Source: Mycolicibacterium fallax
GTDB taxonomy: Bacteria > Actinomycetota > Actinomycetes > Mycobacteriales > Mycobacteriaceae
DNA length: 64,000 nt
Assembly: GCF_010726955.1 (NCBI RefSeq)
Contig: NZ_AP022603.1
Location: 3,224,001-3,288,000, forward strand
Direction of reading: 5' to 3'
Shown: positions 4,068-61,061 of the stretch, one piece after another
How positions within the stretch are numbered: position 1 is the first letter of the stretch
How the letters are laid out: every line of letters begins with the position of its first letter
Notes under the pieces: generated by a model
Seen by the model: the letters and a program-made list of their open reading frames with translations, nothing else
Told to the model about the DNA's origin: nothing
Databases searched by the model: none
Program-made: the position numbers and the translations under genes

Positions 4068-5024
4068 TTAGACGGCTACCAGCTCACGGTGAGCTTCCGA
4101 ATGCCGTGAGTCACGGATCTGACGAACGGTGCGCTCGCCCATGCCCAGCGTCGAGGCGATGGCGAGCACAGGGGTGTCATCGTCCAGCTGACGGAGAACC
4201 TCAGCCACGGTCGCGGCGGGGGTGCGCTTGCCCGTGCGCTTCAGCAGCGCCCGTGCCTCGGTCAGGTGCTCATCGGTCACACGGTCAGTCACAGGATCGT
4301 TCACAGGATCGTTCACAGGCGCGGTCGCAGCCACATGAGGAACGGTCACGGGACGGTCGTTCACACGGTCGTTCATAGGTGCGGAAACGGTCACAGGACG
4401 GTCGTTCACACGGGCGGTCGGACAGTCAACCACACGGTCGTTCACACGGTCAGCCGCAACTACCTGCGGTGACGCTGCTGAACGTGCGGTACGAAGGTCA
4501 GCGTCAGATGCGGGACGGAGCGCGAACCACGCGGCGGTGCATACCAGGAGTACGGCGTCGATGGTCGCGGGGAAAGCGTAGGACGCCCATCCAGACATAC
4601 CGCCCATGATCGCCACTGCCCGTAGGTGCTCATAGGAGACACCGAGCGAAACACCGAACACCGCAGCGCCAACCATCACAGCCACACGGAACAACCAGGG
4701 GCTGTTACGCAACCGAACCACGTTCGCGCGAGTGACGGCTCCCACGGACGACAGGGTGTAGATAATGTGCAGCGCCCACGCTGCCATCACAGGCGCGAGG
4801 CTGAAGACGATGATGCTCAGCACACGTCCAGCTGCCGAGGGGATGGTCGCCGTGACGTTGCCCGCCACGGTCAACAGCAGCCCCGCAGCGATGCCCAGCA
4901 GCATGATCTTGCGAGCGTGCGCTCGGTCGCGCTCGGCGTCCAGCTCTACGGTGACGTGAAGCTGTTCAGCTTCACGGTCAGCCTTCGACAACTTCTTCTT
5001 CGGGGGTGATGCTGTTCCGTTCAT
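4068..5024 (-). CDS. SpdB-like (DUF2637-type) membrane protein with C-terminal HTH
   Basis: 318 residues. A basic N-terminus (PPKKKLSKADREAE) is followed by about four membrane segments (residues about 40-175). Then comes a repetitive linker built from VNDR/VNDP/MNDRVNDRPVTV units (about residues 190-250). The C-terminal region contains a helix-turn-helix-like stretch (VLAIASTLGMGERTVRQIR). This layout matches mobile-element spread proteins of the SpdB/DUF2637 type in actinomycete plasmids, which help intramycelial or intercellular DNA spread. The ribosome site is AGGAGAG before the ATG. The linker-coding DNA is itself an array of repeats. Specific function is inferred. Confidence 0.7.
   Translation of the reverse strand: MNGTASPPKKKLSKADREAEQLHVTVELDAERDRAHARKIMLLGIAAGLLLTVAGNVTATIPSAAGRVLSIIVFSLAPVMAAWALHIIYTLSSVGAVTRANVVRLRNSPWLFRVAVMVGAAVFGVSLGVSYEHLRAVAIMGGMSGWASYAFPATIDAVLLVCTAAWFALRPASDADLRTARSAASPQVVAADRVNDRVVDCPTARVNDRPVTVSAPMNDRVNDRPVTVPHVAATAPVNDPVNDPVTDRVTDEHLTEARALLKRTGKRTPAATVAEVLRQLDDDTPVLAIASTLGMGERTVRQIRDSRHSEAHRELVAV
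4270..4455. repeat. degenerate 12-bp repeat array inside the SpdB-like gene
   Basis: The plus strand repeatedly shows GGTCGTTCACAC and close variants (GGATCGTTCACA twice in tandem, GGTCAGTCACA, CGGTCGTTCACACGG three or more times). On the coding strand these specify the VNDR/VNDP units. The array is either a protein repeat or a DNA-binding array that happens to be coding. Confidence 0.7.
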
Positions 5025-5062: not shown

Positions 5063-5998
5063 CTAGCTCGACGTACTGACTAACGCGCGAGCTGGTTTCC
5101 TACCTGATGCCAAGCTGCGCACAACACTCCAGTCCATGCCCAAAACTTCGGGATCGGACAAGCTGTATTCCCCTCCCCGTACAGGGCTGCCGACGAGGGT
5201 GAACGCTCCCTTCGACACGCCCATCTCCAGCGCAGCGCTGGTGTGCTGACGAAGGCGGCTGCGTACCCGCTCACGCAAAACGTGACGGGTAGCGGGCTGC
5301 AAGACACTCATCAAAACCGCCAACTCGCGAGCGCAATCGAGCACGGGCGAGTCGCCTACGGGGGTGATGGGGATCATCGGGCTCCCCGCTTGGTCAGCGA
5401 GCATCTCCAACGCTGCAACAGCCCGTTGGAGGAGGGCGGGATCGGCGGTGATACTGCCGCCGGCCACTGCCCCTTGGAATGCCGTAGGGCTTGTCCCAGG
5501 GGCTTGTGGCTTGCGGTATGCAACGGGAGCGTGCAAGCCCTCGTCCATCTGGTCATACGGGCGGGGCTGCGGCTGCACACGTTCAATCCCAGGGGCTGTT
5601 TGCCCAGGGGTCGGAACGGGTGCGGGTGCTGACTTAGGTGTCCACCATCCGATCCCACAACGGGCTACACCACCATCCACCACCAGGAGGTGAGTGTCGG
5701 TGAGGAACTTCAGCGCGGCGGGGTCGAGGTCGGTGACGGGGACGACAGCGGCTCGGTCGGTGAACTTGGACAGGATGCCCGCAGCGTTGGTGACGAGGGT
5801 GTTGGGGAGGTTCAGCACGACATCCTCGGTGTCGGTGTAGACCCACCAGTTCTTCTGCATACCGAGCTTCAGCGCGGCGGTGCGGACGGTGCTCGGGATA
5901 GCCGTGATCATCCGAGGGGAATAGCTCCGTGGATGGTGAGTGACGCAGTTCCAGAGGATGATCGCGGCGGCGTCCTCGACGGTTGGTGTGGTGCTCAT
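5063..5998 (-). CDS. hypothetical protein of block 1
   Basis: 311 residues, soluble, no signal or membrane segment. The N-terminal 110 residues (with HHPRSYSPRMITAIPS and two Trp residues in NWWVYTD) look like a compact domain, followed by a Pro-rich linker (residues about 125-175) and a helical C-terminal domain rich in Arg (HVLRERVRSRLRQHTS). A 45-bp part of the linker coding region (5461-5502) has an imperfect second copy in the origin region. Ribosome site GGAGAG before the ATG. I do not recognise the family. Placement between the SpdB-like gene and the DUF3987-like ATPase suggests a replication or transfer accessory role. Confidence 0.7.
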   Translation of the reverse strand: MSTTPTVEDAAAIILWNCVTHHPRSYSPRMITAIPSTVRTAALKLGMQKNWWVYTDTEDVVLNLPNTLVTNAAGILSKFTDRAAVVPVTDLDPAALKFLTDTHLLVVDGGVARCGIGWWTPKSAPAPVPTPGQTAPGIERVQPQPRPYDQMDEGLHAPVAYRKPQAPGTSPTAFQGAVAGGSITADPALLQRAVAALEMLADQAGSPMIPITPVGDSPVLDCARELAVLMSVLQPATRHVLRERVRSRLRQHTSAALEMGVSKGAFTLVGSPVRGGEYSLSDPEVLGMDWSVVRSLASGRKPARALVSTSS

Positions 5999-6453: not shown

Positions 6454-7974
6454 TTATGAGCCTGTGTAGGCGTCGATGCCCGTAGCACCGTCCGCTACCC
6501 AATAACGGGTCTTCCCAGCGGGATCGGTAGTGGCGGTGATGTCCCCTGCGGCGACATGAACGTCGATGAAGCTCTGGGTTTGCTTGCGTTGCTTTGCGGG
6601 CATGTTCCGAGCTATGTCGCTCGGCAGCGCTCCGAATTGCGGTGTCCGAGATCCGACTTTCCACTTGTCGGTCTTCAGAATTTCCAACACACGATCCAGT
6701 GCCGCCTGCTGCGCGGCGTCGGAAGCCTTCTCCAGGAATCCCTCACGGGCAAGCCACCGCTCGCCGTCCAGGATGCCCTTGTCGCGTGCCTCCGCCATCT
6801 TCTTCTTGTCTGCCGAGATGATGCAGTAGGCGCGGGCGCGGCGGCTGTATTCCAGAAGGCACTCCGCCCACCACCAAGCCTCACGGTCGATGACGGCGGG
6901 GTTCCCGAGTCCAGCCCGCCATCCCGCGAAGATCGCGGCGAGACGGACACAGAGGTTGTCGGCGTGTGCGTCGAGCGGGTTGCCCAACTTTCCCTTCAAG
7001 ACGCGAGCGCGCCGCACTTCGAGCTCCTGGAGGACTTCATCGTCCACGGTGAGCCCGTTGGTCGGACCCCACACAACGAGCGTCGGTGCCTGAAGCTGAA
7101 GACTCATGGCGGGTACGCCGAGCGCCTTCTCGACTTTGCGTTTGTACCCACGGATAGCGGGTGAGGTGTCTGGTGCGTCCACGTCAGGCAAGGGGAACCA
7201 CAACAGCCGCTGCAAGGTGCCACCAGTAGCGTCCTCCAAGAGCACACCAGCGTGATCAGGCTGCGCTCCCACGAACATCACGAAGCGGTAGGTTCCCGCT
7301 TCGACCTTGCATCCGAATCCGGACTTCAAACGGGTGATGGACTCATCGCCCGCGTTCTCGCCAGTGAACAGTGACCGCATGGTCGCATCGAGGGTCGAGT
7401 TTGCGTTCGCGCTCTTCGCGGCCAACTGATCAATTTCCCCCCAGTTAGCCCAGACAGGCTCATCGTGGCGAACGGTTTCGCTTCCCTTACCGTCAGCGGC
7501 GGGGACGGTCTCAAAGAAAGCGTTGATAAGCGCCTCTCCCGATGCGGGGGTGTGCGCGCGGTACCCGCCCAGGGGGTTGGCGGTGACCATCGGAGCATCG
7601 AGGGTGACGCCCTTACCGAGCCCCGATGCGCCCACGAGGCACACCATCAGGTTCAGGGGAATAGCCCGCCCGCTGACTCCCGTGCCCACCGACACCTTCG
7701 ATGCATCACAGCACCCCACACCGAGCGCCTTGCTCAGCAGCGCGACAGGGTTGCCTTTCTGGTACCCGCGCGCCACCAGCTCGATGATGGAGATAAGGGG
7801 GACGCCGCACTCCATGACTTCGGAATACAGCTCGTCGTCAGCGAGCTTATTAAGGGGCAAGCCTTCGTTAATGGACTGAAACTTGGGTGTGGACGGCTTC
7901 ATGTAGGAGTGCGTCTGCAACCGAGGGTCAGCGGGAGCGCTTATTGCGGTATCCGAATTTGGTGATATAGTCAC
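6454..7974 (-). CDS. DUF3987-like P-loop ATPase, probable replication helicase
   Basis: 506 residues from a GTG at 7972-7974 with GGAAGG eight bases upstream; longer in-frame starts lack a ribosome site. A P-loop GASGLGKG occurs near residue 115, and an acidic strand in WANWGEIDQL near residue 180 could be Walker B. The region VWGPTNGLTVDDEVLQELEVRRA and the helical C-terminus are like DUF3987/primase-associated ATPases carried by actinobacterial plasmids and phages. The second K/S of a classical Walker A is replaced by G (GKG instead of GKS/T), which is unusual. It lies next to the origin-like region, consistent with a helicase role. No primase domain is attached. Confidence 0.7.
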   Translation of the reverse strand: MTISPNSDTAISAPADPRLQTHSYMKPSTPKFQSINEGLPLNKLADDELYSEVMECGVPLISIIELVARGYQKGNPVALLSKALGVGCCDASKVSVGTGVSGRAIPLNLMVCLVGASGLGKGVTLDAPMVTANPLGGYRAHTPASGEALINAFFETVPAADGKGSETVRHDEPVWANWGEIDQLAAKSANANSTLDATMRSLFTGENAGDESITRLKSGFGCKVEAGTYRFVMFVGAQPDHAGVLLEDATGGTLQRLLWFPLPDVDAPDTSPAIRGYKRKVEKALGVPAMSLQLQAPTLVVWGPTNGLTVDDEVLQELEVRRARVLKGKLGNPLDAHADNLCVRLAAIFAGWRAGLGNPAVIDREAWWWAECLLEYSRRARAYCIISADKKKMAEARDKGILDGERWLAREGFLEKASDAAQQAALDRVLEILKTDKWKVGSRTPQFGALPSDIARNMPAKQRKQTQSFIDVHVAAGDITATTDPAGKTRYWVADGATGIDAYTGS

Positions 7975-7989
7975 AATTAGTTCCTTCCG

Positions 7990-8030
7990 AAAAACCGTCC
8001 CGGTGCCTACCAAAGCGGGGGCGGTTTTTT
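7990..8030. terminator. bidirectional terminator-like hairpin
   Basis: AAAAACCGTCCC at 7990-8001 faces GGGGGCGGTTTTTT at 8017-8030. The imperfect stem has A/T runs on both sides. It separates the excisionase-like gene from the ATPase gene on the minus strand. Confidence 0.7.
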
Positions 8031-8038
8031 GTTGTCTA

Positions 8039-8263
8039 TTACTTGGTTCTCGTCGTCAGTCGCCAGCCCCACAAACGGAGCGCGTCGCGTGGGTCAATAG
8101 CCCAAGTGTTTCCCACCTTCAGAGCGGGAAGCCTGCCCGATTCCACGGCAGTAATTACGCCGCGTCGAGTCAATCCGAAGAGGTCGGCTATCCAGGTAAC
8201 GCCCACCTTCTCGGGGAGTTCGCCCTGAATCGGTACGGGAAACTCGAGAGTGACGGTTGTCAT
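8039..8263 (-). CDS. excisionase-like HTH (HTH_17/MerR-type) protein
   Basis: 74 residues from the ATG at 8261-8263, chosen because AGAAAGG lies eight bases upstream; an ATG 24 bases further has no such site. The core VTWIADLFGLTRRGVITAVESGRLPALKVG matches the winged HTH of excisionases and small MerR-like factors that bend att or origin DNA. It opens towards the ATPase gene and is divergent from the origin-like region. It could be the element's Xis, although no integrase is visible, or a replication/copy-control regulator. Confidence 0.75.
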   Translation of the reverse strand: MTTVTLEFPVPIQGELPEKVGVTWIADLFGLTRRGVITAVESGRLPALKVGNTWAIDPRDALRLWGWRLTTRTK

Positions 8264-8525
8264 TTCTTGTCGCCTTTCTAGCTGCATTTGTGCGTCTGTA
8301 TATAGCCTAACTCGTATTTGCGCTTTTCAGTTCCCAGCTAGCAACGAAATTTATTACCATTCACAGAGGGTGTTAATGCCACATAAACACAGGTCAGAAG
8401 TATTTTTCGGAGCCCGCGAAGTGGTGAATTGGAGAAGATGCAGGTCAGATAGCAAATTCACCAAAGAACGCGTTGAATTCCGTTATTGGCTGTAATCAGC
8501 GCAGCGCACACCGTTTATCTATTAG

Positions 8526-8541
8526 TGTGACGAAGGTCACA
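8526..8541. promoter_or_regulatory. perfect Crp-type palindrome
   Basis: TGTGACGAAGGTCACA fits the mycobacterial Crp consensus TGTGA-N6-TCACA in all ten conserved positions. It lies about 95 bases before the 8-bp repeat array. Binding by the host Crp encoded at 31678-32352 is inference. Confidence 0.6.
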
Positions 8542-8621
8542 TGCGTGAATGGCTGAATGGCTTATATCCGCCGCCTAGAGACACCGATCAGCTTCACTCA
8601 CTAATGTCCGCCGCGTCCTAT

Positions 8622-8669
8622 AGGAACCGAGGAACCGAGGAACCGAGGAACCGAGGAACCGAGGAACTG
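8622..8669 (+). repeat. six tandem 8-bp repeats (AGGAACCG), possible translocase recognition site
   Basis: Five perfect units of AGGAACCG and a sixth with one change (AGGAACTG) follow each other without gaps. Clustered 8-bp repeats are the known binding sites (clt/TRS) of TraB translocases in Streptomyces plasmids, and this element encodes an FtsK/TraB-like protein. They could instead be replication iterons. Confidence 0.6.
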
Positions 8670-8709
8670 GCTTCTCTAATGTCCGCAGCCTAGAGACACC
8701 GAGGAGCTT

Positions 8710-8942
8710 GTTAATATCGCGCGAGACTCGCGAGACTCGCGAGACCGCTTTTCGCGAGAGTGAGTCCGCAGCTCTCTTCATAACGTGAAGTGATGATTTT
8801 TTATTATTAATATATATACTCTGAGCTGCGGAAATGCTGAATTTTGACACCCGCCGCGCTCATTCTGAAGAGAGCCCCGCCGCGCCCCCACACACCCCGA
8901 AAAACAGTCTCGCGCGTCTCGCGAGTCTCGCGCCATATTAAC
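8710..8942. other. candidate replication/transfer origin: nested inverted repeats around an AT-rich core
   Basis: A 36-bp outer arm (8710-8745) has a partner at 8907-8942 with only two mismatches. Each arm holds three GCGAGAC units. Inside, TCCGCAGCTC (8765-8774) pairs with GAGCTGCGGA (8823-8832), flanking a 48-bp A/T-rich core with an ATTATTAATATATATA tract. A further pair, GCTCTCTTCA (8771-8780) and TGAAGAGAGC (8866-8875), overlaps. Iterons beside a melting region are typical of theta or integrative-element origins. Confidence 0.65.
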
Positions 8943-9128
8943 AACGTCTTGAAAACCACCCACCAACGCTGCGCTAAAACCGCCGCGTGATCCCACCCAT
9001 AGACCCCTGGGACAAGCCCTACGGGCAATTCCACGGGGCAGTGGCCGGACAGCCCACACAAGCCCTACGAACCACCCACAAGCCCCCTGGGCACCAACAC
9101 CCCACCCCTGCCCTACGAGCCGTCCTAG

Positions 9129-9143
9129 AGGTAGTCACTACCT
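9129..9143. promoter_or_regulatory. operator-like palindrome upstream of 9207 gene
   Basis: AGGTAGTCACTACCT is a perfect 7-1-7 palindrome 64 bases before the next start codon. No clear -10 box could be fixed around it. Confidence 0.5.
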
Positions 9144-9206
9144 GTTTTCGTCCCACGCCGCGTGTCCACGGCGCGTCAGCTTCCCCCACCTGTAGCGTCG
9201 CGGCGC

Positions 9207-9581
9207 ATGGGAATCCTTGATGAGCGAGTGACAGAGGCAGCCGAACCTCAATGGGAGATTGTTCGTGTTGTCCTCCCGCCGCAGCCGAGCGGGATTGAGA
9301 TGTGGACGAGACCCACGCTTACCGACATAGCCGAGTATGTCGAGGGGTTAGACCTTTTTGGGATCGTCCAGCAGAGGAATGTCCACACTGGCGAACTGCG
9401 GTGGCGTCCTGCGACTATAAGTGGTGGCGGGGATGTGACCGTTATAGATGAGCCGCGAACCGACACGCAATACACGAAGGTGTGGTGGTGCAGGTCCATT
9501 GGCAGTAAAGACCCTGAACTATACGACTGGGGGCAACGTGGGGGCGGATTCCCTGAGGTTGAACGTATCCGTGAGCGCTAA
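9207..9581 (+). CDS. hypothetical protein of block 1
   Basis: 124 residues from the ATG at 9207. An ATG 45 bases earlier is in frame but the coding pattern is weaker there. The product is soluble, rich in Trp, Arg and Pro (WTRPTLTDIAEYVEGLDLFG, KVWWCRSIGS). No ribosome site is evident, so the start is uncertain. I do not recognise the family. It is the first rightward gene after the origin-like region. Confidence 0.6.
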   Translation: MGILDERVTEAAEPQWEIVRVVLPPQPSGIEMWTRPTLTDIAEYVEGLDLFGIVQQRNVHTGELRWRPATISGGGDVTVIDEPRTDTQYTKVWWCRSIGSKDPELYDWGQRGGGFPEVERIRER

Positions 9582-9587
9582 TCCCGT

Positions 9588-9629
9588 ATTATCAATTTCT
9601 CCGTATTCGCGTACCTGAAAATTGATAAT
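9588..9629. terminator. AT-rich hairpin after the 9207 gene
   Basis: ATTATCAATTT (9588-9598) and AAATTGATAAT (9619-9629) are perfect 11-bp arms with a 20-base loop, starting six bases after the stop codon. There is no strong T-run, so it could be an operator rather than a terminator. Confidence 0.5.
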
Positions 9630-9662
9630 GAACTAGTAACACTAATTGCCTCCAATTTCAAC

Positions 9663-9685: not shown

Positions 9686-9982
9686 ATGACCGCAGCTATT
9701 TCAATTCCTTATCGGGAATTGCGCGCAGCTCAGCGTCGCGCTATACGGGCGGAAGAATGCGCCGCCGCCGCCCGCCGTGAGCGTGACGACCTCACCGCCG
9801 CGTTGTACGAGCAGGGCGTCCCGCAGACCCATCTGGCACAGGCGCTCGGCATCACTCAGTCTTACGTGTCTCAGCGCATCGCGCAGCGCCGTAAGGAACT
9901 GGCGCACGGCACCCTCCCCGCACCGAGGCACAATGAGGACAACGCAGCGCCTCACCAGCGCGGCGAAGGAGGGGAAGTCTGA
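9686..9982 (+). CDS. small helix-turn-helix DNA-binding protein
   Basis: 98 residues. A basic helical N-terminus (AAQRRAIRAEECAAAARRE) precedes an HTH: GVPQTHLAQALGITQSYVSQ (about residues 44-63), then IAQRRKEL. This resembles small sigma-70-region-4/XRE-like plasmid regulators. The transcript is probably leaderless (see the promoter entry). Its stop overlaps the start of the next gene (ATG/TGA overlap at 9980-9984), so it is cotranscribed with the Pro/Thr-rich and metalloprotease genes and probably controls them and itself (inference). Confidence 0.75.
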   Translation: MTAAISIPYRELRAAQRRAIRAEECAAAARRERDDLTAALYEQGVPQTHLAQALGITQSYVSQRIAQRRKELAHGTLPAPRHNEDNAAPHQRGEGGEV

Positions 9983-11298
9983 TGCAGCGCACCGACGCGC
10001 ACCTGGAGCTGTTCAGTGGATGGGACAGCTCCCTTTCCGAGCTGACCGACAGTCCCTGGACTCCCGCACTCGACGGTGATGCCTGGCAGGGAGCGCCCGC
10101 CGACGCGGGAGCTCAACGGGCTCAGCAAGAGCAGGTGTGGGTAGAGAAACTGTCCACCGCAGCGGGGGCCATGGTGCCTGTCCTGGAAGCTCAGCAGATC
10201 GCCGCCGCCAACTACGAGGCGGCTCCCACCGAAAACGAGGTGCTCCAGGCGAAGGCAGCCGCCGCGCTGGCGAAGAACAGTGACCTTCCGAACGCGCCCG
10301 CGCTGGAAAAGGAATACCTCCGTCTGAAAGACGAGCGGGATGCGGCTGTACGCGCGCTGGAGCTGGCGTGTGCGGACACACAGGCAGCGCTCGACAAGCT
10401 CGACCTCCCCGACATCACCGATGACACCTGTAGCGCCGAGGATGAGACCACCGATCCCGAGTCCGATGAGGATGAGGATGAAGACGACCCTGGAATGCAG
10501 GGCGGGGATGAAGACGAGGACGAAGACGACCCTGGAATGCAGGGCGATCCCACCACCGAACCGTCCCCGACCGACACCACCTCACCGACTCCGAGCCCGC
10601 AGCGCGCCGATGGCGACACGTCCCCGCCCGCGCAGCCAAGCCCGAACGCCAGTGATAGCGCTCCCCGCATCGTGATGGATGCACCACCGCGCACCGAGCT
10701 GTCGTCTAGCTCATCGGATACCGGCAGCGCCGCGAGTCCGAAGGTGTATCCGAACCCGAACGTTGGACAGCAGCCCACCTACACGCCACAGGCACAGCCG
10801 CCGCCCGTGATGGCAACCCCGTCCAGCACGGCTACCGCAGCGCCCGCACAGCAGCAGGCATACCGCCCCGCACCGACCCCATCCCACACGCAGCGGGAGA
10901 CCAAGGTAGACGGCAGCGATCCGATTAGCCTCGTTGGCGCAGCGCCCGTTGCGACACCTGTTCCCGCTCATGCGCCGATGCCGTCCAGCACGGTGTCGTC
11001 TCCGAGCACCAGCTTGTCCAGCAGCAGCAGCGCACCTACAGCGCCTACGGCAGCGGCTCCGAGCGCAGCCCCTGGAGCGGCACCGGTTGGCGGAGCACCA
11101 GCCCCTATCGGTGCGGGGAGCAAGCCGACGACCAGCCACACCAAGATCATTGCCGCCGATCAGCCCACCGACCCCGAGCCCGACAAGGGGGTCAAGAAGA
11201 TGACCACAGCGGAGCTGTACAGCGCCGTTGCCGCGCTGATGACAGAGATTGACGAGCGCGATGCAGCCCCGAAGCCCCCCGCATCGGAGAAGGTATGA
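9982..11298 (+). CDS. large Pro/Ser/Thr/Ala-rich low-complexity protein with acidic repeats
   Basis: 438 residues. A helical N-terminal region (about 1-140, with Trp in LFSGWDSSL and coiled-coil-like KEYLRLKDERDAAVRALE) is followed by two tandem acidic repeats, each DEDEDEDDPGMQG (near residues 165-190). A long disordered Pro/Thr/Ser stretch follows (about 190-395), and a short helical C-terminus (MTTAELYSAVAALMTEIDER). There is no signal peptide or membrane segment. It is translationally coupled on both sides (HTH gene and lipoprotein gene). The family is not recognised. A scaffold or exported surface/transfer protein is possible. Confidence 0.75.
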   Translation: MQRTDAHLELFSGWDSSLSELTDSPWTPALDGDAWQGAPADAGAQRAQQEQVWVEKLSTAAGAMVPVLEAQQIAAANYEAAPTENEVLQAKAAAALAKNSDLPNAPALEKEYLRLKDERDAAVRALELACADTQAALDKLDLPDITDDTCSAEDETTDPESDEDEDEDDPGMQGGDEDEDEDDPGMQGDPTTEPSPTDTTSPTPSPQRADGDTSPPAQPSPNASDSAPRIVMDAPPRTELSSSSSDTGSAASPKVYPNPNVGQQPTYTPQAQPPPVMATPSSTATAAPAQQQAYRPAPTPSHTQRETKVDGSDPISLVGAAPVATPVPAHAPMPSSTVSSPSTSLSSSSSAPTAPTAAAPSAAPGAAPVGGAPAPIGAGSKPTTSHTKIIAADQPTDPEPDKGVKKMTTAELYSAVAALMTEIDERDAAPKPPASEKV

Positions 11299-12029
11299 GA
11301 TTCAGATACGTTGCCGCAGCGGCACTTTCAGTAACTCTCCTCGCTGGTTGCAGCGCGACCACAAGCGGAACAGCGCAGCCCGCCCGTGTTAACGACGCCT
11401 CAACACCATCACGCAGCGTCACCACGACTACCGCCACGACAACAGCCGAACCCGCCCGTGTCCCCGTCACCATCGAGGGGAGCACGGGGGACTACTTGGA
11501 CACGCTGGCGCAGAACACGCTCAGCGCGCTGGTCACCTTCTGGGATAAGAGCGGAGCCGTCACGAAGCCGATGCGCTATACCTATTGGGAATCCAGCGCA
11601 GGCGAGCAGTCCCCGATGTGTGCGAGTAGGCACCAGCCCGAAGGTGTGTTTTGTGACCGAACACGCGGCGAGATTGACGAACTTGCTTGGGATAAAACCC
11701 ATTTTGGCGAGCTAGTGAACAACTCCGAAGTTGGCGCGAAGGCTGCTTCCGTCATGCTCCTCGCACATGAGTATGGACATGCGGTGCAGGAGGCGCAGGG
11801 CAACCTCCGTGACAACAAGCATCGCGAGCTTCAAGCTGACTGTCTGGCAGGTGTTTTCGCGGCGGACTACGCTCCCGAGATCACCGACGAGCGCTGGGGC
11901 ATCGCTTCGAACCACGTCTATGGATTCACCCGCGCCACGGCGGACAAGGTTCGCAACCGCATCGTCGCCTTCTCCGAGGGCTGGTACAAGAAGTCAGCCG
12001 CGCACTGCAACAGCTACACGGGATCGTAA
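11295..12029 (+). CDS. lipoprotein zinc metalloprotease
   Basis: 244 residues. The N-terminal signal ends in a lipobox LLAGC (Cys19), so the mature protein should be lipid-anchored outside the membrane, followed by a Thr-rich linker. The catalytic zinc motif HEYGH in MLLAHEYGHAVQ (near residue 155) and ELQADCLAG about 20 residues later fit the neutral zinc metallopeptidase family (YpfJ/PF04228 type), where the second Glu/Asp completes the site. Four cysteines (CASR, FCDR, DCLAG, HCNS) could form disulfides. It overlaps the previous stop by four bases. On a conjugative element it may remodel the envelope or cleave a surface partner (inference). Confidence 0.85.
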   Translation: MRFRYVAAAALSVTLLAGCSATTSGTAQPARVNDASTPSRSVTTTTATTTAEPARVPVTIEGSTGDYLDTLAQNTLSALVTFWDKSGAVTKPMRYTYWESSAGEQSPMCASRHQPEGVFCDRTRGEIDELAWDKTHFGELVNNSEVGAKAASVMLLAHEYGHAVQEAQGNLRDNKHRELQADCLAGVFAADYAPEITDERWGIASNHVYGFTRATADKVRNRIVAFSEGWYKKSAAHCNSYTGS

Positions 12030-13670: not shown

Positions 13671-13676
13671 TTTCTG

Positions 13677-13750
13677 TCGGGGTGGCGGGATTCGAACCCA
13701 CGACCTCTTCGTCCCGAACGAAGCACGCTACCAAGCTGCGCCACACCCCG
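13677..13750 (-). tRNA. tRNA-Pro (anticodon CGG)
   Basis: Read on the minus strand from 13750, the acceptor arms CGGGGTG and CACCCCG pair, followed by discriminator A. The anticodon loop TTCGGGA gives CGG, reading CCG. The TTCGAATC T-loop is present and CCA is not encoded. The 5' half is the core of the block 2 attachment site, so the sequence upstream of this gene is element DNA, not the original promoter. Confidence 0.95.
13707..13750. repeat. block 2 attachment site, integrase-proximal copy (44 bp)
   Basis: Identical over 44 bases to 23120-23163. It covers the tRNA-Pro anticodon stem-loop to the mature 5' end and reconstitutes a complete tRNA. Confidence 0.9.
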
Positions 13751-13820
13751 TGTTCCGCGATCACAATACGGTATGGCCGGTCAGGGCACATAATCGGTAT
13801 CCCTGGACGGTCTGCACGGG

Positions 13821-14957
13821 TCACTGGCTGACCACCGGGGTCACAGCGGGGTCACAAGCCAGGTCAGCCGCGCGCTGGGCGTCCACTGCGGCCGACACCC
13901 GATCCAGGTCGTCGGGCAGCAGCGAGGCGTACACGTCGGCGGTGACCGCTCCGCTGGCGTGACCTGCCAGCAGCTGGACCGCCTTCAACGATGCGCCCGC
14001 CGAGATCGCCAGGCTGACCGCCGTGGCCCGCGCATCGTGCACGGTCAGCGTCGGGATCGAGTCGTCGAGCTTGCGCGCGGCAGCCAGGGCCGGATGCCAC
14101 ACCCGACGCCGCCAGTTGTTGACCCGGATCGGCGTGGTGCCGTTGCCGAACAGCAGATCGTCCCGGGCGCGGCCGGTGGCCTGGACGCTCAACGGCTGCA
14201 GCAGGTGCGCCGGGATCGGCACCGACCTGGCCTCGTAGGTCTTGGTCGCGCTCCACACCAGACCCTCGCCGCGCACGTCGGTGACCGACCGGTTGACGTT
14301 CACTCGCCGACGCAGGAAGTCCACATCCTCGACCCGCAGCGCGAACAGCTCCCCGGCGCGCAGTCCGAAGTAGCACAGGCACTCGGTGATCAGGGTGTCC
14401 TCGGGAGTGGAGCAAGCCTCGGCGACCAGCGCCACCTGCCGGTGGGTCAGGTACCGCTTGACCTTCGGGGTGCGTCGAGGTGCTCGGACTCCGGTCGCCG
14501 GGTTCGACTCGATCAGCCGATCCTGGACCGCCACTGCCAGGATGCCTCGCAGCACCACCAGCGCGTTCTCGATGGTGGCCGGTCCGGCTCCGTCTGCCGA
14601 CATCTGCCCGACCCAGGTCCGGATCTGGCTCGGCCGGATCTTGCCGACCTCGGCCGACTCCCAGCGTGGTTTGACCTGTACCTTCCAGGCACCTTTGCGG
14701 GTCGCGCGGGTGGTGGCTTTGATGTGAGCCAGTCCGGCCAGGTAGTCCGGCCACAGCGTGCCAACCGTGATCTGGCCGGAACGCGGGTCGATCCACTGAC
14801 CGGAGGCGACCTTGACCTCCAGCTGCGCAGCAGCCAGCTTGGCCTCCTTCATAGTGCGGTAGCCCTTGCGCTGGTGCTGGCGGCCGTCCGGGTCGCGATA
14901 TCGGACCTTGTACCGCAGCTGGCCGCTGCTCAGGGTGTACTTCTCGATGCTGCTCAT
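13821..14957 (-). CDS. tyrosine site-specific integrase
   Basis: 378 residues. The N-terminal arm-binding part contains YRDPDGRQHQRKGYRT (AP2-like/Arm domain), then a SAM-like core-binding domain (about 60-160). In the catalytic domain the first Arg is in LRAGELFALR, the HxxR box reads HDARATAVSL, and the second His lies in LAGHASGAVT. The nucleophilic Tyr is in TADVYASL. The usual HDLRHT is changed to HDARAT, which keeps the key His and Arg. Ribosome site AAGGAG before the ATG. The gene abuts the attachment site at the tRNA 5' side, so the enzyme recombines within the anticodon-to-5' half of tRNA-Pro. Confidence 0.95.
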   Translation of the reverse strand: MSSIEKYTLSSGQLRYKVRYRDPDGRQHQRKGYRTMKEAKLAAAQLEVKVASGQWIDPRSGQITVGTLWPDYLAGLAHIKATTRATRKGAWKVQVKPRWESAEVGKIRPSQIRTWVGQMSADGAGPATIENALVVLRGILAVAVQDRLIESNPATGVRAPRRTPKVKRYLTHRQVALVAEACSTPEDTLITECLCYFGLRAGELFALRVEDVDFLRRRVNVNRSVTDVRGEGLVWSATKTYEARSVPIPAHLLQPLSVQATGRARDDLLFGNGTTPIRVNNWRRRVWHPALAAARKLDDSIPTLTVHDARATAVSLAISAGASLKAVQLLAGHASGAVTADVYASLLPDDLDRVSAAVDAQRAADLACDPAVTPVVSQ

Positions 14958-14986
14958 GGTGTCTCCTTGAATGGGTGGGCAACTAA

Positions 14987-15018
14987 AGCGACCCCCGGTC
15001 GAATGACCGAGGGTCGCT
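14987..15018 (-). terminator. hairpin between repressor and integrase genes
   Basis: AGCGACCC (14987-14994) pairs with GGGTCGCT (15011-15018), extended by CGGTC/GACCG. It lies just after the repressor stop on the minus strand and could isolate integrase expression. Confidence 0.6.
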
Positions 15019-15024
15019 GTGGGA

Positions 15025-15708
15025 TCAGGTGGGATCCGGTGGGTAGTGGGTTGGATTCCGGCGCGAGTCCGGCCAGTCGGCGATGTGCTCGGCGAGCTGG
15101 GCGCGCAGCTCGGCGGTCACGTCACCCGGCGAGCGGTGCTGCACCTCGGCGAGGTGGTCGCGGATCTCGCTGAAGGTGCGGCCGGTCTCCAGCAGCGTGT
15201 GGGTGACCGCGTTCAGCACGTTCTCATCGAGATCGAGCGCGCGTGCCGTCCGGCGCTCGGTCAACCCAGACCGCAGGCTCATCGCGTACAGGGTGTCGGC
15301 CGGGACCCCCAGGGTGGTTGCCATCTGGTCGGCGCTGGCCCAGCCGCTGAACGCTGCCCACTCGTCCGGCGTCATCGGGTCGCTGGGCTCAAGCGATGGC
15401 ACCGGACCGAACAACCCGGCCAGGTCGGCAGTGGCCACGGTGACCTCTCCCAGATCCACGCGCTCGGCGTCGGTCTGCAGCAGCTCGGAGATCTCGCACT
15501 CCAGCACCCTCGCCAGCGCCAGCACGGTGGACAGCTTGGGGTCGCGTTCCCCACGCTGAATCGCGCTGACCCGGCTACCGGACCAACCGAACCCGAGTTG
15601 GCGCGCGGTGACGGCTACGTCATCCAGACTCAGCTCACGGTCGGCGCGTAGTCGCCGGACGTTGCGGCCGACCACCCGGCCGAGGCTCTCAACCTTCGGA
15701 CCTGCCAT
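15025..15708 (-). CDS. XRE-family transcriptional regulator, probable repressor
   Basis: 227 residues. An N-terminal HTH (residues about 10-75: VVGRNVRRLRADRELSLDDV, then SGSRVSAIQRGERDPKLSTV) is typical of XRE repressors. The remainder is a helical C-terminal region of unknown type (LSRSGL-like helices, RTFSEIRDHLAEVQHR). It starts at the last base of the upstream gene (stop and start overlap by one base). As the only repressor-like gene between integrase and the early region, it is the likely lysogeny-type control protein and may bind the palindrome at 16198-16221. Confidence 0.85.
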   Translation of the reverse strand: MAGPKVESLGRVVGRNVRRLRADRELSLDDVAVTARQLGFGWSGSRVSAIQRGERDPKLSTVLALARVLECEISELLQTDAERVDLGEVTVATADLAGLFGPVPSLEPSDPMTPDEWAAFSGWASADQMATTLGVPADTLYAMSLRSGLTERRTARALDLDENVLNAVTHTLLETGRTFSEIRDHLAEVQHRSPGDVTAELRAQLAEHIADWPDSRRNPTHYPPDPT

Positions 15709-16034
15709 CAGAGGAAGTCATGGGTAGACGGGCACATCATCAGCTTGGACGGGAGCACCCCCATGGTGTTCCGCCGCCGCGCCGCGCGAGCGTGCACGGA
15801 GTCGACGTCATCGCTGTAACGGATGAACTCGGTCTTTAACCGCTCAAACGCTGTGGAGAGAGTGACGTCACACGCCTCTGCGATGAGAAGGCTCGCCAAC
15901 GCTGCCAAATCAGCTCCGGCGGAATAGATTTCGGATTCTGTCTCCGTGAGCGAAGCTTGCCAGGGGTGACCCGACGTGTCGTCGGCCAGCTCAATCATGC
16001 GACGCCGCGTGGTTTGGATCGAAGTCTCGGTCAT
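15708..16034 (-). CDS. hypothetical protein cotranscribed with the repressor
   Basis: 108 residues, helical (AGADLAALASLLIAEACDV), no motif recognised. It is first in the leftward operon and translationally coupled to the repressor. Its start lies about 160 bases from the operator palindrome in the divergent promoter region. Confidence 0.65.
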   Translation of the reverse strand: MTETSIQTTRRRMIELADDTSGHPWQASLTETESEIYSAGADLAALASLLIAEACDVTLSTAFERLKTEFIRYSDDVDSVHARAARRRNTMGVLPSKLMMCPSTHDFL

Positions 16035-16197
16035 TTGGGGTGTCCTCTCAGTCGGTCGGTGCGTGGGATCTCCGCGCCAGGCCAGTGTAGCACGCTATGG
16101 TACTACCTGTCGTACCGTCTGAAACAACACCGCTGGCCAAAGCGGGCTCACGATCGGTGTGGCTGGTTGCGGTCCGCTTAAATCGTATGGTCGACTG

Positions 16198-16221
16198 GTG
16201 TCGCACCAAACGGTGCGACAC
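16198..16221. promoter_or_regulatory. operator-like palindrome in the divergent promoter region
   Basis: GTGTCGCACC and GGTGCGACAC are perfect 10-bp arms around AAAC, 25 bases before the excisionase start. It is a likely site for the block 2 repressor (inference). Confidence 0.65.
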
Positions 16222-16246
16222 ACCGCCGACGAGAGGAACACCCCAA

Positions 16247-16456
16247 GTGAAACCGCACACCGACCCCCGACTGACCACCCCCGAGGCCGCCGAGTACATG
16301 GGTCTGGCCCAGCGGACGCTCGAGTACTGGCGCAGGACCGACCGGGGACCGCGCTACCTGCGCTTTGGACACAAGGTGGTCTACCGCCAGTCCGACCTGG
16401 ACGAGTTCACCCAGCAGTGCGCGGTGGACACCTCCGAGACGCGCGCGGTCAGTTGA
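16247..16456 (+). CDS. excisionase (HTH_17 winged-helix)
   Basis: 69 residues from a GTG with GAGAGG upstream. The sequence LTTPEAAEYMGLAQRTLEYW (residues about 9-28) followed by GPRYLRFGHKVVYRQSDLDEF is the standard HTH_17 fold of Xis proteins. It is the first rightward (early) gene, divergent from the repressor operon. It should bias the integrase to excision. Confidence 0.9.
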   Translation: MKPHTDPRLTTPEAAEYMGLAQRTLEYWRRTDRGPRYLRFGHKVVYRQSDLDEFTQQCAVDTSETRAVS

Positions 16457-16562
16457 CGGCAGCGCCCGACCTCCAAATAGCCGAATGGCCGGGGTCGGGG
16501 ATCACCCAACACCGGCCACTCAAACCGTCCGCGCAAGAGGACTGAGAAGGAGACACCCCAAG

Positions 16563-17393
16563 ATGCCTCACAACCAGGAAACCATGCAGCTTAACGAGCT
16601 GCCAAACACGCGCGGAGTGTTCGCGCGGATCGCGCCCACACTGGCGGCCGAGGGCTGGCAGGTCTTCCCGCTCGTGCCGGGTACCAAGACCCCCTACGCC
16701 GGGTCGCACGGGCACCTGGACGCCACCGACGACCCCGCCGTGGTGTCCCGCTGGGCACGGGAGACGCCAGAGGCCAACGCCGGGGTGAGACCACCCGAGA
16801 GCGTTGTTGTGTTGGACGTAGACGACCCGGTGACATTCGAGTCCTGGTGTGCAGCAAGGCGACTCGCGACGCCGGACACGCGGACAGTCCACACCCGGCG
16901 CGGGGTCCACCTGTACTACCGGCTACCGCAGCCGGTGGACCTGCGCGCTCAGCTGGTCGGGGTCAAGGTGGACCTCAAGAGTCACCGAGGGTTCGTGCTG
17001 GCACCCGGGTCGGTGGTCGGCGGCCACACCTACCGCCTGTCTCGGGAAACCCCCCCTGCTGACCTGCCGACCCTGCCGTCGCAGTGGCTGCCGCTGGTGA
17101 CCCGGCCGCAGCGTCAGGCGTCCCCGCCGTCCGGCCCACAGAGGGGGCTTCCCTCCGGCGCGGACCCCACCCGGCTGGCGCGTCTGCTGAGCGTCAAACG
17201 ACCCGGTGACGGTCGGCGCGGGTTCCTGCGCTGGGCGCTGTGTGAGGCGCACCGGACGTTCACCGGCGCGGAACTGCAGCACGCGGTCGGCGCTCTGGTC
17301 GAGGCGGCCGGGCACGTCGGCCTCGACCCCGCCAACACCGCCGAACTGGCGGAGTGGGCCAACCAGGAGTTCACCCAGGAGACTAGCTCGTGA
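16563..17393 (+). CDS. bifunctional DNA primase/polymerase (prim-pol) domain protein
   Basis: 276 residues. Prim-pol features: GWQVFPLVPGTKTPY (about 30-44), the metal-binding strand VVVLDVDD (about 82-89), HTRRGVHLYYR (about 110-120) and DLKSHRGFVLAPGS (about 137-150) with the catalytic His/Arg region. The C-terminal part (after about 215) is helical and may contact the helicase. It lies downstream of xis and overlaps the helicase gene by four bases. Together they would prime and unwind element DNA. Confidence 0.9.
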   Translation: MPHNQETMQLNELPNTRGVFARIAPTLAAEGWQVFPLVPGTKTPYAGSHGHLDATDDPAVVSRWARETPEANAGVRPPESVVVLDVDDPVTFESWCAARRLATPDTRTVHTRRGVHLYYRLPQPVDLRAQLVGVKVDLKSHRGFVLAPGSVVGGHTYRLSRETPPADLPTLPSQWLPLVTRPQRQASPPSGPQRGLPSGADPTRLARLLSVKRPGDGRRGFLRWALCEAHRTFTGAELQHAVGALVEAAGHVGLDPANTAELAEWANQEFTQETSS

Positions 17394-18880
17394 CCCGTTA
17401 CACCGACCTCGAACTACGCCACCACGACGGTCGCCTGCGGCTGGACGATTCGCCGGTGTCGGCGTACCTGGCGCAACGGATGCGCCCGCTTTACCGGTGC
17501 GTGTCCGGTCTGGGTTGGCACCACTACGACGGCCGAGTGTGGCGACCTGTCACCGACGACGAGCTAACCACCGAAGTTCAAACCCAGCTGACTGACTTGT
17601 TCGCCGAAGAGGCACCGCACGCCGAGTCGGACCGCCGAAAGCGGCTCGCCGGTCTGCTGTCGGGTGGCCGCATCCGAGCAGTTAAGGGTCTCCTACGCGG
17701 CTTGCTGCACGAGGACGCCAGCCGGTTTGACTCACGCGAGCACGCACACCTGCTCAACACCCCAAACGGCGTGGTCGATCTGCGCACCGGCGAGCTGGGA
17801 CCACACAACCCGGACTTGCTGCTGACCAAGATGACCACCGTCGAGTACCGGCCCGACGCGCGACACCCGGACTGGGATAAGGCGTTACAGGCGTTGCCGC
17901 CGGAGGTAGTCACGTGGGTGCAGGTCCGACTCGGTCAGGCGTTGACCGGCGTACCGCCGGGTGACGACCTGCTCATGGTCTGGCACGGCGGAGGGGAGAA
18001 CGGTAAGTCGACCTTGCTGGCGTTCCGGTTCGCACTGGGTGACTACTCCGGCGACATCAGCGACCGAGTGCTGACCGCACGAGCGGGCGACCACCCGACC
18101 GAGCTCACCGACCTACGCGGGTTGCGTTGCGCGGTCCTGGAAGAGCTGCCACCCGGCCCGCTGTCAGAGAACCGGCTCAAGCGGGTGGTCGGCACCGACA
18201 AGATCACCGCGCGCCGGATCCGCGAGGACACCATCTCGTGGTTGCCGACTCACACTCCGATCATCGTGACCAACCACCTGCCACGAGTGGCCGAGACCGA
18301 CCACGGCACCTGGCGACGACTGGTCTTGGTGACCTTCCCGTTTCGGTACCTCAAGCCGGGCCAGCCGAAGCGGCTCAAGACCGAATTGCGTGGCGCACCT
18401 GGGCTGCGCGAGCGGGTTCGCGACAACACCGACAAGCAACACGAGGCAGCGCTTGCCTGGTTGGTGGCCGGAGCGGTCCGCCTGTACGGAGGCACCGACT
18501 CCCAACACCTGCCGCCAGTGCCCGACCAGGTCCAAGCCGACACCGAAGAGTGGCGACACGGCGTGGACTTGCTGGCGCTGTTCGCCGACGACGAGTTGGT
18601 GTTCGACCGGGCGTGGTCGGTCAAGTCCACAGACGTGTTCGGCGAGTTTCAGAAGTGGCTGGCCAACCACGGGCAAGCGGAGTGGTCTGACCAGACGTTC
18701 ACCGAGCGGCTGCAGACCCACCGGTTGGCACAACAACACGGGCTGACCAAGACCCGAGTGCGACCCAAGCAGCTGTCGTTTCCACGCTGGCAGAAAGCAC
18801 CGAAAACACCTAGCGCCAAGGTCTCTCAGTGGCACGGCGTGAGGTTCCGCACGGCCGACGACGACCAGGGAGAGTCGTGA
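17390..18880 (+). CDS. phage/plasmid SF3 helicase (P4/D5 primase-helicase type)
   Basis: 496 residues. The D5_N-like region (about 60-200) includes HLLNTPNGVVDLRTGEL. Walker A GGGENGKSTLL is near residue 203 and an acidic Walker B in LRCAVLEELPPG near 245. Then comes SF3 motif C, PIIVTNHLPRV, near 300, with an arginine-finger region TWRRLVLVTFPFRY. The length is typical of satellite helicases in which the primase is a separate protein, here the upstream prim-pol gene. Confidence 0.92.
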   Translation: MTRYTDLELRHHDGRLRLDDSPVSAYLAQRMRPLYRCVSGLGWHHYDGRVWRPVTDDELTTEVQTQLTDLFAEEAPHAESDRRKRLAGLLSGGRIRAVKGLLRGLLHEDASRFDSREHAHLLNTPNGVVDLRTGELGPHNPDLLLTKMTTVEYRPDARHPDWDKALQALPPEVVTWVQVRLGQALTGVPPGDDLLMVWHGGGENGKSTLLAFRFALGDYSGDISDRVLTARAGDHPTELTDLRGLRCAVLEELPPGPLSENRLKRVVGTDKITARRIREDTISWLPTHTPIIVTNHLPRVAETDHGTWRRLVLVTFPFRYLKPGQPKRLKTELRGAPGLRERVRDNTDKQHEAALAWLVAGAVRLYGGTDSQHLPPVPDQVQADTEEWRHGVDLLALFADDELVFDRAWSVKSTDVFGEFQKWLANHGQAEWSDQTFTERLQTHRLAQQHGLTKTRVRPKQLSFPRWQKAPKTPSAKVSQWHGVRFRTADDDQGES

Positions 18881-19278
18881 GCGGGCAGGGTCGGGCAGTA
18901 GTCGGATGGGCGTTCTCACGAGGGGACCAGATCCTAAGACCGCCTACCGACTATTGCCCGCCCCTGACCACCCCCTCTGACCTGCGGCGGAGCAGCCACC
19001 CCGGGCAGAAGGGTAACCCCCTCTCCGGACCCGGCACGCGAGTCAGCAGGGGGGGCCATCCTCCCGGAAGAGCCCCCCTGCCTACTGTCTGCCCGACTGC
19101 CTGGCAGCAGGCCACGAACTGTGCCCGATCGGGCACATATGTGCCGCACACCCCCCGTCCAGCACTGTGCCGACTGTGCCGCCCCCTTAGGGGGCACAGT
19201 GGGCACAGTGCACAGGGACCGGGCGCAATTGTGCCGAAACACCCTGACCCCCAACAACATCGACAGACAGGAGAACTC
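18881..19278. other. intergenic region, probable replication origin of block 2
   Basis: About 400 bases without a supported gene between helicase and the next small gene. The first part holds an inverted repeat, CGGGCAGTAGTCGG (18892-18905) with CCGACTATTGCCCG (18947-18960, one mismatch). The second part contains the TGTGCC array listed separately. Confidence 0.65.
19120..19235. repeat. TGTGCC iteron array with overlapping palindromes
   Basis: Eight copies of TGTGCC/GGCACA lie in 116 bases. TGTGCCCGATCGGGCACA (19120-19137) and GGCACATATGTGCC (19132-19145) are overlapping perfect palindromes. 19163-19210 forms a long hairpin with arms of two iterons plus a C/G run each side of TTAG. A last copy lies at 19230-19235. 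The position just after the helicase gene suggests the replication origin. Confidence 0.7.
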
Positions 19279-19533
19279 GTGGCGCCCATCGGCCGTGACA
19301 GGCAAGCCTCGACCACTCACCCACTGAGTCAGGCAATCGGGATCGTGCACGCGTGGCTGGACCGTGGCCCACTGACCGACACCGAGCTGTACCGACTGGC
19401 TGCAGATCGCGGCCTGTCCGCCAGCCGAGTAGGTCCGGCGCTCAATGCGATGACGCAGCGCAAGGAGATCGAACGAAGTGCCGACCGGATGTACCGGCTG
19501 GCCACCATCCCGACCCAACCGAAGGAGAGCTAG
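19279..19533 (+). CDS. small winged-helix-like protein
   Basis: 84 residues from a GTG with ACAGGAGA upstream. The core (LSQAIGIVHAWLDRGPLTDT, then SASRVGPALNAMTQRKEIE) resembles a winged-helix domain with a wing ending DRMYRLA. Probably DNA-binding; it lies right beside the iteron array. No specific family assigned. Confidence 0.7.
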   Translation: MAPIGRDRQASTTHPLSQAIGIVHAWLDRGPLTDTELYRLAADRGLSASRVGPALNAMTQRKEIERSADRMYRLATIPTQPKES

Positions 19534-19535
19534 AA

Positions 19536-19850
19536 GTGACCGACAACCGACCTGAACTCGACCCGCATCAGTGGTCGATCGCTGGCGGACTGACCGCCGT
19601 CGCCATCGTGCGCGCTGTCGCAGAGGGCGACTACGTCCACGCCGAGGAACTGTGGCAGACCGAGCGGATCCACGATGGCCAAGGCCAACACGTGGTCGCG
19701 GCACTGGCCATCATCGCGACCAACGCACTGACCAACCTCGCCACGTTCGACCAGCCGCCGACGACGCTGAACAAACTGCTCGACCGCCTCAACGACCACT
19801 ACGCGGCCGAGATCCGCGCCCAGTTCAACTACCACAAGGAGACCAAGTGA
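19536..19850 (+). CDS. small hypothetical protein
   Basis: 104 residues from a GTG following GAAGGAGAG. Helical, with WSIAGGLTAVAIVRAVAEGD. It shares composition and layout with the next gene product (both start with TDN/TTDN and have an Ala-rich helical core), so the two may be paralogues. Translationally coupled downstream. No family recognised. Confidence 0.65.
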   Translation: MTDNRPELDPHQWSIAGGLTAVAIVRAVAEGDYVHAEELWQTERIHDGQGQHVVAALAIIATNALTNLATFDQPPTTLNKLLDRLNDHYAAEIRAQFNYHKETK

Positions 19851-20179
19851 CCACCGACAACGACCGACCCACCGACGCCCAGATGTACGAAGGCGTGGTC
19901 CGCGCGGCAGCGGTGATCGCGGCCGCGATGGCGGGGCAGATGAACTTGGTCAACCGGACGATCTCGTACGCCGAATCGACCGGCCACGGTCCGGCGCTGG
20001 TTAACGGCATGGTCACCATCGCGGCCGAGGCGCTGGTGGCCGCCGTCGCCTACGCCGCCGAGGATCCGGTCGAGGGCGTGACCACGGACCGGCTGCTGTA
20101 CACGATCTGTGAGACAGCGCGCACGGGTGCGCAGATGGCCCGCGACATCCAACAGCTCACCGAAGGGACCGACCAGTGA
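19847..20179 (+). CDS. small hypothetical protein
   Basis: 110 residues from a GTG overlapping the previous stop (GTGA). Ala-rich helical protein (VVRAAAVIAAAMAGQMNLVN). Its stop overlaps the scaffold start by four bases. Location between replication and capsid genes gives no clear function. Confidence 0.65.
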   Translation: MTTDNDRPTDAQMYEGVVRAAAVIAAAMAGQMNLVNRTISYAESTGHGPALVNGMVTIAAEALVAAVAYAAEDPVEGVTTDRLLYTICETARTGAQMARDIQQLTEGTDQ

Positions 20180-20694: not shown

Positions 20695-20704
20695 TGGTTG
20701 AATG

Positions 20705-20745
20705 GGAGGTGGAGCTGCGACCCCGGTGGTCAACGCTCCACCTCC
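20705..20745 (+). terminator. stable hairpin between scaffold and capsid genes
   Basis: GGAGGTGGAGC (20705-20715) and GCTCCACCTCC (20735-20745) are perfect arms with a 19-base loop and no T-run. It may protect mRNA ends or set the scaffold:capsid ratio rather than terminate. Confidence 0.5.
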
Positions 20746-61030: not shown

Positions 61031-61061
61031 TTGAGTGCCGATTCCTGATTGCGGCCGAGGA

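Follow-up and report, generated by a model that had tools for sequence, protein, structure and literature searches.

Introduction

Some mobile elements encode a helicase that is taken as a self-loading initiator of their own replication, as is the case for two staphylococcal proteins, SaPIbov1 Rep and SCCmec Cch, the latter being MCM-like. The organisation closest to the one reported here is that of the origins of phage-inducible chromosomal islands (SaPI and Gram-negative PICI; PICI/SaPI below), described as unique to PICIs, in which the origin lies immediately 3′ of the initiator gene and the initiator binds the iterons through its C-terminal domain. For SaPI Rep, this domain is described as recognising such repeats, apparently as two hexamers (PMC7581432). 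The archaeal plasmid pRN1 is reported to encode its own primase/helicase with a C-terminal winged helix, which acts at an adjacent inverted structure (PMC4234260); its origin is a stem-loop of ~100 nt, located 3′ of the gene and devoid of iterons. In actinobacterial mobile DNA, the origins of extrachromosomal mycobacterial prophages are of a RepA type (RepA of 320-350 aa) or of an RNA type, with no repeated motifs in the regions examined in that study (PMC7157519). Finally, a survey of AICEs (PMC3218068) used RepSA, RepAM and Prim-Pol/RepPP and pointed to additional 'unforeseen AICE replication modules'. In the literature searched, limited to PMC, we recognised nothing on paired inverted iterons in actinophages or AICEs.

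In this study, we analysed a window of 64 kb, that is the whole stretch of DNA considered here (bases 3224001-3288000 of the 4.16-Mb single-contig genome of Mycolicibacterium fallax); unless stated otherwise, coordinates are those of the window. Ms1 and 6C RNAs are consistent with a mycobacteria-like actinobacterium. The preliminary description of this DNA had interpreted a non-coding stretch with nested inverted repeats as a replication origin, which, as judged from the sequence, appears largely right: the feature is very probably the bidirectional, helicase-initiated replication origin of a ~17.8-kb integrative actinobacterial element. Its organisation matches the one published for PICI/SaPI origins, while initiator, box and host range differ; indeed, an extra conserved box, TCTGA(G/C)C(T/A)G(C/G)GG, is found here. 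In addition, the PICI/SaPI origin is 3′ of its initiator gene, whereas the one in the window is 5′ of the helicase gene with an HTH gene in between; placement of the PICI/SaPI kind is seen in the viral loci that have pairs. The binding of iterons by the C-terminal domain of the PICI/SaPI initiator may have an indirect parallel in the winged helix predicted at the C-terminus of our helicase and in the co-variation of this part with the iterons in viral relatives. PICIs as a whole are marked by a primase/rep module, induction by a helper phage, and genes for phage interference and packaging. We do not file the element as a PICI, given its different gene position, the lack of a recognised primase and the presence of an FtsK translocase. 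The DUF927 domain of the SaPIbov1 Rep/Cch family is absent from the helicase and, unlike pRN1, the window has iterons.

Results

Two opposed sets of iterons around an AT-rich middle

The feature is built on two inverted arms of 47 nt, the left one at 8708-8754 (+ strand) and the right one at 8898-8944 (- strand), which are 91% complementary and separated by 143 nt. The preliminary description had reported arms of 36 bp with two mismatches and three repeat units each. Both points are borne out, as 34 of 36 positions pair in the best 36-nt alignment, now extendable to 47 nt, and each arm holds three copies of CGCGAGAC with a period of 9 bp: direct in the left arm (8720, 8729 and 8738), inverted in the right arm (8907, 8916 and 8925). 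Such pairing is beyond chance, since at most 24/36 positions paired in 300 dinucleotide shuffles of the 1.2-kb region and at most 26/36 in four shuffles of the whole window. Within the 18-kb stretch holding the element CGCGAGAC is confined to the arms, with two further copies in the 64-kb window; the shorter word GCGAGAC occurs 16 times in the window, including 6 copies in the arms. Elsewhere in the window, a scan at 15/16 identified five inverted pairs unrelated to the feature.

Between the arms lies an AT-rich core (8776-8818, + strand), a candidate melting site that opens with the short dyad CTTCA-TAACG-TGAAG; CTTCATAACGTGAAG precedes the AT tract and CTCTGAGCTGCGG follows it. The inner dyad of 10 bp that had been described around this tract is indeed perfect, its left half TCCGCAGCTC (8765-8774, + strand) and its right half GAGCTGCGGA (8823-8832) flanking 48 bp of 79% AT with a core (8790-8818) of 90% AT; its left half is not conserved in three relatives (L006, L015 and L017, see below). 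As these relatives keep the right half only, we rejected the dyad as a functional unit and consider that what is conserved is the box CTCTGAGCTGCGG (8819-8831, + strand). A further nested inverted repeat pairs 8771-8783 (+ strand) with 8863-8875 at 92%.

The feature differs from classical iteron plasmids, with DnaA boxes beside direct iterons: no DnaA box (TTNTCCACA with at most one mismatch) was found between 6199 and 9300, and matches of this type across the window (22) are close to expectation (19). The DNA from 8300 to 9300 gave no similarity match with plasmids and phages. To the right of the feature, positions 9004-9048 have a 45-nt inverted copy (91%) at 5460-5502, inside the gene 5063-5998.

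An integrated element with an AICE-like gene complement

The element that holds the feature is ~17.8 kb long and bounded by a 47-bp direct repeat (100%) at a tRNA-Pro gene, with the right copy in the tRNA-Pro at 13676-13722 and the left copy outside the window, 4076-4030 bp to the left of its start. The products of the element include a tyrosine integrase (PF00589, 74 bits), a repressor-like HTH protein, an FtsK/SpoIIIE-type DNA translocase, a DUF2637 protein (4068-5024, - strand) and a helicase. The translocase (731 aa, - strand), whose gene starts or ends 244 bp outside the left edge of the window and reaches position 1951, matches PF01580 with 25.9 bits for a cut-off of 24 and has a Walker A motif, GGTGAGKS. 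Pfam recognised no primase among the 18 element proteins scanned, which cover all but a few small frames. With its tyrosine integrase, its tRNA attachment site with direct repeats and its FtsK/SpoIIIE translocase, the element resembles AICEs in gene complement; it differs from them by its helicase, which has no Pfam match and hence none to RepSA, DUF3631 (RepAM) or Prim-Pol, the AICE replication proteins that we tested.

The preliminary description had placed a putative helicase gene beside the repeats. The helicase gene is nearby (6454-8013, - strand) and its product, the candidate initiator, is modelled as an MCM-like AAA+ protein; the immediate neighbour of the repeats is however the gene of a small HTH protein (8039-8287, - strand; HTH_17/excisionase-like, with matches below curated cut-offs), and the helicase gene comes next. 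Similar small HTH proteins are encoded ahead of the helicase in L006, L015 and L008/L017. This protein varies between elements and is a possible accessory iteron binder. On the opposite side of the repeats, a second HTH protein (9686-9982, + strand) is 44% identical over 70 aa to a protein of L015.

Transfer sites of FtsK/TraB-type translocases include 8-bp TRS repeats. An array of 5.8 tandem copies of the 8-mer AGGAACCG (8622-8667, + strand) lies 40 bp left of the arms, a spot to which it is unique in the genome, and could be a clt/TRS-like transfer site for such a translocase; no 8-bp array turned up when 20 kb around L006, the second element of the chromosome, were scanned for tandem repeats. 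The element is integrative and probably conjugative.

Beyond the second HTH gene, positions 9982-12029 encode a protein that is long and of low complexity, whose match to EspB is very weak (E 0.06), followed by a lipoprotein-like zinc metallopeptidase. Comparable gene pairs were seen by eye in L006 (3505-8356) and L015 (431-4520), and were not recovered by blastp; the L006 element also encodes WXG100/ESX-like proteins. It is conceivable that these gene pairs are tied to type VII secretion or DNA transfer.

A predicted MCM-like helicase

The structure model of the helicase (pLDDT 87) displays an MCM-type AAA+ core, with a winged helix predicted at the C-terminus. Using Foldseek, 47 of the 48 matches at E≤1e-3 were MCM entries, with low TM-scores (0.28-0.39 by query across the 48 matches). 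The sequence itself matches no Pfam family at E≤0.1, neither DUF927 nor D5_N being recognised, and a helicase profile of 4 rows gave no match among solved structures. The close family is small: 7998 candidates scored out of 5.8 billion yielded 26 proteins (P0001-P0026) at E≤1e-10, mostly on short contigs. Among genomes, own genome included, the helicase was found in 7/401 of the family (E≤1e-20) and 14/394 of the class (E≤1e-30); in the order, the only one of 397 genomes at E≤1e-40 was its own.

Related elements and chromosomal loci

Three relatives were informative. L006 is a second element of the same chromosome (1904950-1926693, at a tRNA-Met), whose helicase is 51% identical over 420 aa; its counterpart (9573-9630) of the core 8776-8831 is 81% identical and is flanked by ATGGGAG-type words. 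L015 is a contig of 9 kb that was assigned, perhaps wrongly, to Microthrixaceae by binning; it shares this core and also has ATGGGAG words. L017, from another genus, has perfect arms of 34 nt with GAGTG words, and its AT tract is followed by GAGCTGCG. Thus, inverted arms, AT core and GAGCTGCG are found beside the helicase gene in all three loci, with ATGGGAG iterons in two and GAGTG iterons in one. The scan for long-range pairs covered 24 kb of the window and 20, 9 and 20 kb of the relatives, and the arms are the sole pairs that it gave at 18/20. Between elements, the layout and the core are kept and the repeat word changes. Conservation in relatives, which the preliminary description had put forward as a check, thus holds for the geometry, the AT core and the box, not for the repeat word, which is exchanged; the layout kept in the three elements supports the origin reading.

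With respect to the rep genes, the core of the window's element is oriented opposite to those of L006, L015 and L017. Arm-to-arm recombination could flip the core, and a core working either way would suit a symmetric, bidirectional origin. Among the 401 genomes of the family, the core pattern was found in the window's own genome only, twice.

Among more distant members of the helicase family, pairs lie 3′ of the helicase gene in L018 and L022, and a 15/16 pair surrounds CCGCAGCTC in L020. L021 resembles the layout by eye, yet has no 15/16 pair, and the only pairs of L019 are 6 kb off and lack an AT-rich middle. Furthermore, six of 13 additional chromosomal loci (L117-L129) have a pair of at least 15/16 and seven have none. 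Five of these six pairs are directly 3′ of the gene, the middle being not very AT-rich in two of them (minimal GC 0.38); the sixth, in L122, lies inside the reading frame and is probably no origin.

Phage and viral loci

Searching with tblastn, we found genes related to the helicase (27-37% identity) in 64 phage records, and most of the matches among the rows shown are annotated as DNA primase or primase/polymerase. In six of seven phages inspected, an inverted pair around an AT-rich middle is located directly 3′ of the primase/helicase gene; in four of the six, the annotation places a small hypothetical gene across the pair, and two have the pair in an annotated gap. No pair was found in Firecracker, the remaining phage, nor in a Tsukamurella plasmid.

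We then turned to viral contigs. Scans with two and four helicases gave, respectively, no relatives and one weak relative (L025), in which the 16-nt scan found no pair. A scan with one profile of one collection, on which the statistics below depend, identified 105 relatives; 80 were kept, of which 74 had enough flank, the six without 3′ flank (L052, L057, L072, L078, L092 and L109) being left out of the counts. The best 16-nt inverted pair reached at least 15 in 48/74 loci, compared with 0/74 in a control stretch of the gene itself. Counting non-redundant loci, a pair of at least 15/16 lies within 480 bp after the helicase stop in 31/54, for a background of 4/630 other 500-bp windows of the same loci; at a looser cut-off of 14/16, the figures are 35/54 and 44/630. 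Among the 23/54 loci without a pair at 15/16, 19 also had none at 14/16. The paired-repeat layout beside these helicase genes is therefore common but not universal, and its presence in 31/54 loci gives further support to the origin reading proposed earlier.

The loops of 36 non-redundant viral loci, a training set from which the window's own family was excluded, yielded de novo the motif TCTGAcCTGcGGt, with an LLR of 80.5 compared with 43-53 in six shuffled sets. When both strands of the whole window are considered, TCTGAcCTGcGGt has its top site at 8820 (TCTGAGCTGCGGA), within the box beside the AT tract, and the motif site is also the top one in L006, L015, L020 and L123. In held-out loops, the motif was significant in 5/14, three of which are from the window's own family, and not significant in 9/14 (L017, L018, L021, L022, L117, L120, L122, L127 and L129). 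As in the elements, orientation varies: viral sites scoring at least 9 lie along the gene direction in 9 cases and against it in 16.

Co-variation of the helicase C-terminus and the iterons

In the window's helicase family, the C-terminal domain evolves apart from the core. Core and C-terminal identities are, respectively, 90% and 25% between two metagenomic members (P0009 and P0012), 54% and 10% between the window and L006 helicases, and 89% and 93% between those of L006 and L015, which have their repeat word in common. In two other metagenomic helicases, P0003 and P0005, the C-terminal domain looks by eye like that of the window's helicase. Across viral loci, the sharing of repeat words is predicted by C-terminal identity over and above that of the core (partial rho 0.32, 0/1000 permutations), while the reverse test, core given C-terminal part, gives 0.11 (p 0.09); relatedness is not fully removed by these permutations.

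Near-identical helicases are more telling. Among 103 viral/phage pairs with cores at least 75% identical, the shared fraction of iteron 7-mers is 0.62 or more in every one of the 39 pairs whose C-terminal 80 residues are at least 96% identical, and 0.38 or less in every one of the 64 pairs at 89% or below. These pairs come from a handful of clades and are non-independent, so that they amount to a handful of independent exchanges. In phiGD17-1 and prophiGD12-2 (L026/L028), the cores compute as 100% identical, the C-terminal parts are 35% identical and the iterons are different. When L026/L028 and L064/L060 are aligned, the AT core and the sequence past the right arm are kept, with a box-like CTCTACCTGG alongside the AT core, whereas the C-terminal codons, the left arm and the right arm all differ; in Tarzan and Santhid, the core is kept in part, as is the sequence past the arms. 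Since the AT core is kept between two flanking arms that both differ, one linked exchange of helicase end and origin is disfavoured; several separate exchanges could be an alternative. In these viral relatives, the comparisons indicate that the last 80 helicase residues and the iterons change together.

Discussion

We propose the following role for the feature. After excision of the element, the two opposed iteron triplets would be recognised by an initiator. The MCM-like helicase is the most likely one; its C-terminal winged helix would read the iterons, perhaps assisted by the small HTH protein encoded nearby. The two bound sites would load two helicase hexamers face to face, the AT core between the arms would melt and replication would depart both ways; the box CTCTGAGCTGCGG beside the AT tract may be a conserved second cis signal. 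While we infer these steps of binding, loading, melting and replication, several lines of evidence converge on an origin: arms beyond chance with iterons that occur nowhere else in the 18-kb stretch, relatives that keep arms, AT core and GAGCTGCG despite other iterons, the excess of viral pairs beside helicase genes, the motif site at 8820, the MCM-like model, and a helicase C-terminus that changes with the iterons in viral relatives and is exchanged in the window's family too. Other observations weaken this reading. The feature is 5′ of the helicase gene here, with a small gene between, and 3′ in viral loci; some viral loci have no pair, the box is mostly non-significant in held-out loops and, in most of the six phages, the pair is covered by an annotated small hypothetical gene. 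Moreover, the Foldseek TM-scores are low, no primase was recognised and the 103 pairs are non-independent.

The location of the feature also weakens it, as it sits in the gap between the HTH gene at 8039-8287, which points left, and genes that point right (9162 or later), a place where operators are expected. The repeats could then form a double operator, being sites of one of the two HTH proteins that would control the divergent genes, and iteron origins often regulate their rep gene as well. We nonetheless find this unlikely as an explanation of the feature: the viral pairs are 3′ of the helicase gene and not in a promoter, the repeat words track the C-terminal domain of the helicase itself, and the single promoter-like site found in 8280-9250 (8348-8376, 0.6 expected) is outside the arms. 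A transfer origin for the FtsK/SpoIIIE-type translocase would make sense of the translocase gene and of the 8-bp tandem repeat close to the arms. That tandem is however a better transfer candidate than the arms themselves, phages share the layout, and L006 has arms with no translocase relative found in the 29 kb around it, which makes a role of the arms in transfer improbable.

Even less probable is a partition (centromere-like) site of the excised element. The repeats are opposed and the HTH protein at 9686-9982 has a very weak match to the RepB partition family (E 0.011, below cut-off), but no other partition match was found among the scanned element proteins, and the layout is linked to helicase genes in many replicons. 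As for a terminator, an attenuator or a mere fold-back with no DNA-binding role, to which the long complementary arms and a terminator-like match within the right arm (- strand) might point, we give it hardly any credit: the 143 nt between the arms greatly exceed what a terminator would allow, the units are tandem 9-mers and the middle holds conserved sequence.

A replication origin thus remains by far our preferred reading, and it gives a little-known class of actinobacterial mobile DNA an origin that can be tested. It also suggests that the organisation described as unique to PICIs has a wider occurrence. On a more tentative note, actinobacterial phages and integrated elements might share a large unnamed class of origins, in which an MCM-like self-loading helicase has a replaceable winged-helix reader, mirror-image iteron sets load two opposed hexamers, and a TCTGASCWGSGG box with an AT tract serves as a freely oriented opening core. 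We regard this as a possibility and not yet as the probable case, albeit a better one than we first estimated, because reader and address change together while the core is kept. If true, bacteria would have in this class a compact equivalent of the MCM double hexamer origin of eukaryotes, and origin specificity would evolve by joint exchange of reader and address. The natural matched pairs of helicase end and iterons on near-identical cores are material for the study of how replicons replace their address with the machinery kept, and a simple scan beside primase/helicase genes can find such origins, which would aid the annotation of phages and elements.

The element has several neighbours. A second element is inserted in tandem at the same tRNA-Pro (13707-23166, with a 47-bp repeat of 98% at 13707-13753 and 23120-23166); it encodes an integrase, a repressor-like HTH protein, a Prim-Pol and a D5 helicase (Pfam), as well as a phage capsid-like protein recognised by eye only (20833-21918), and has the look of a small satellite that carries a capsid gene. 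In this Prim-Pol/D5 element (13.7-23.2 kb), the scan at 15/16 gave no inverted pair. A third element, at a tRNA-Thr (58061-61099), encodes an integrase-like protein (58249-59595, by eye) and a RepSA (pSAM2-type) initiator (59507-61099), so that three integrated elements with three different replication modules are found in one window. Finally, the locus L005 (14549-17356) has two tyrosine integrases, the left one recognised by eye and the right one by Pfam, aimed at the left attachment repeat, which suggests a further element left of the ~17.8-kb one.
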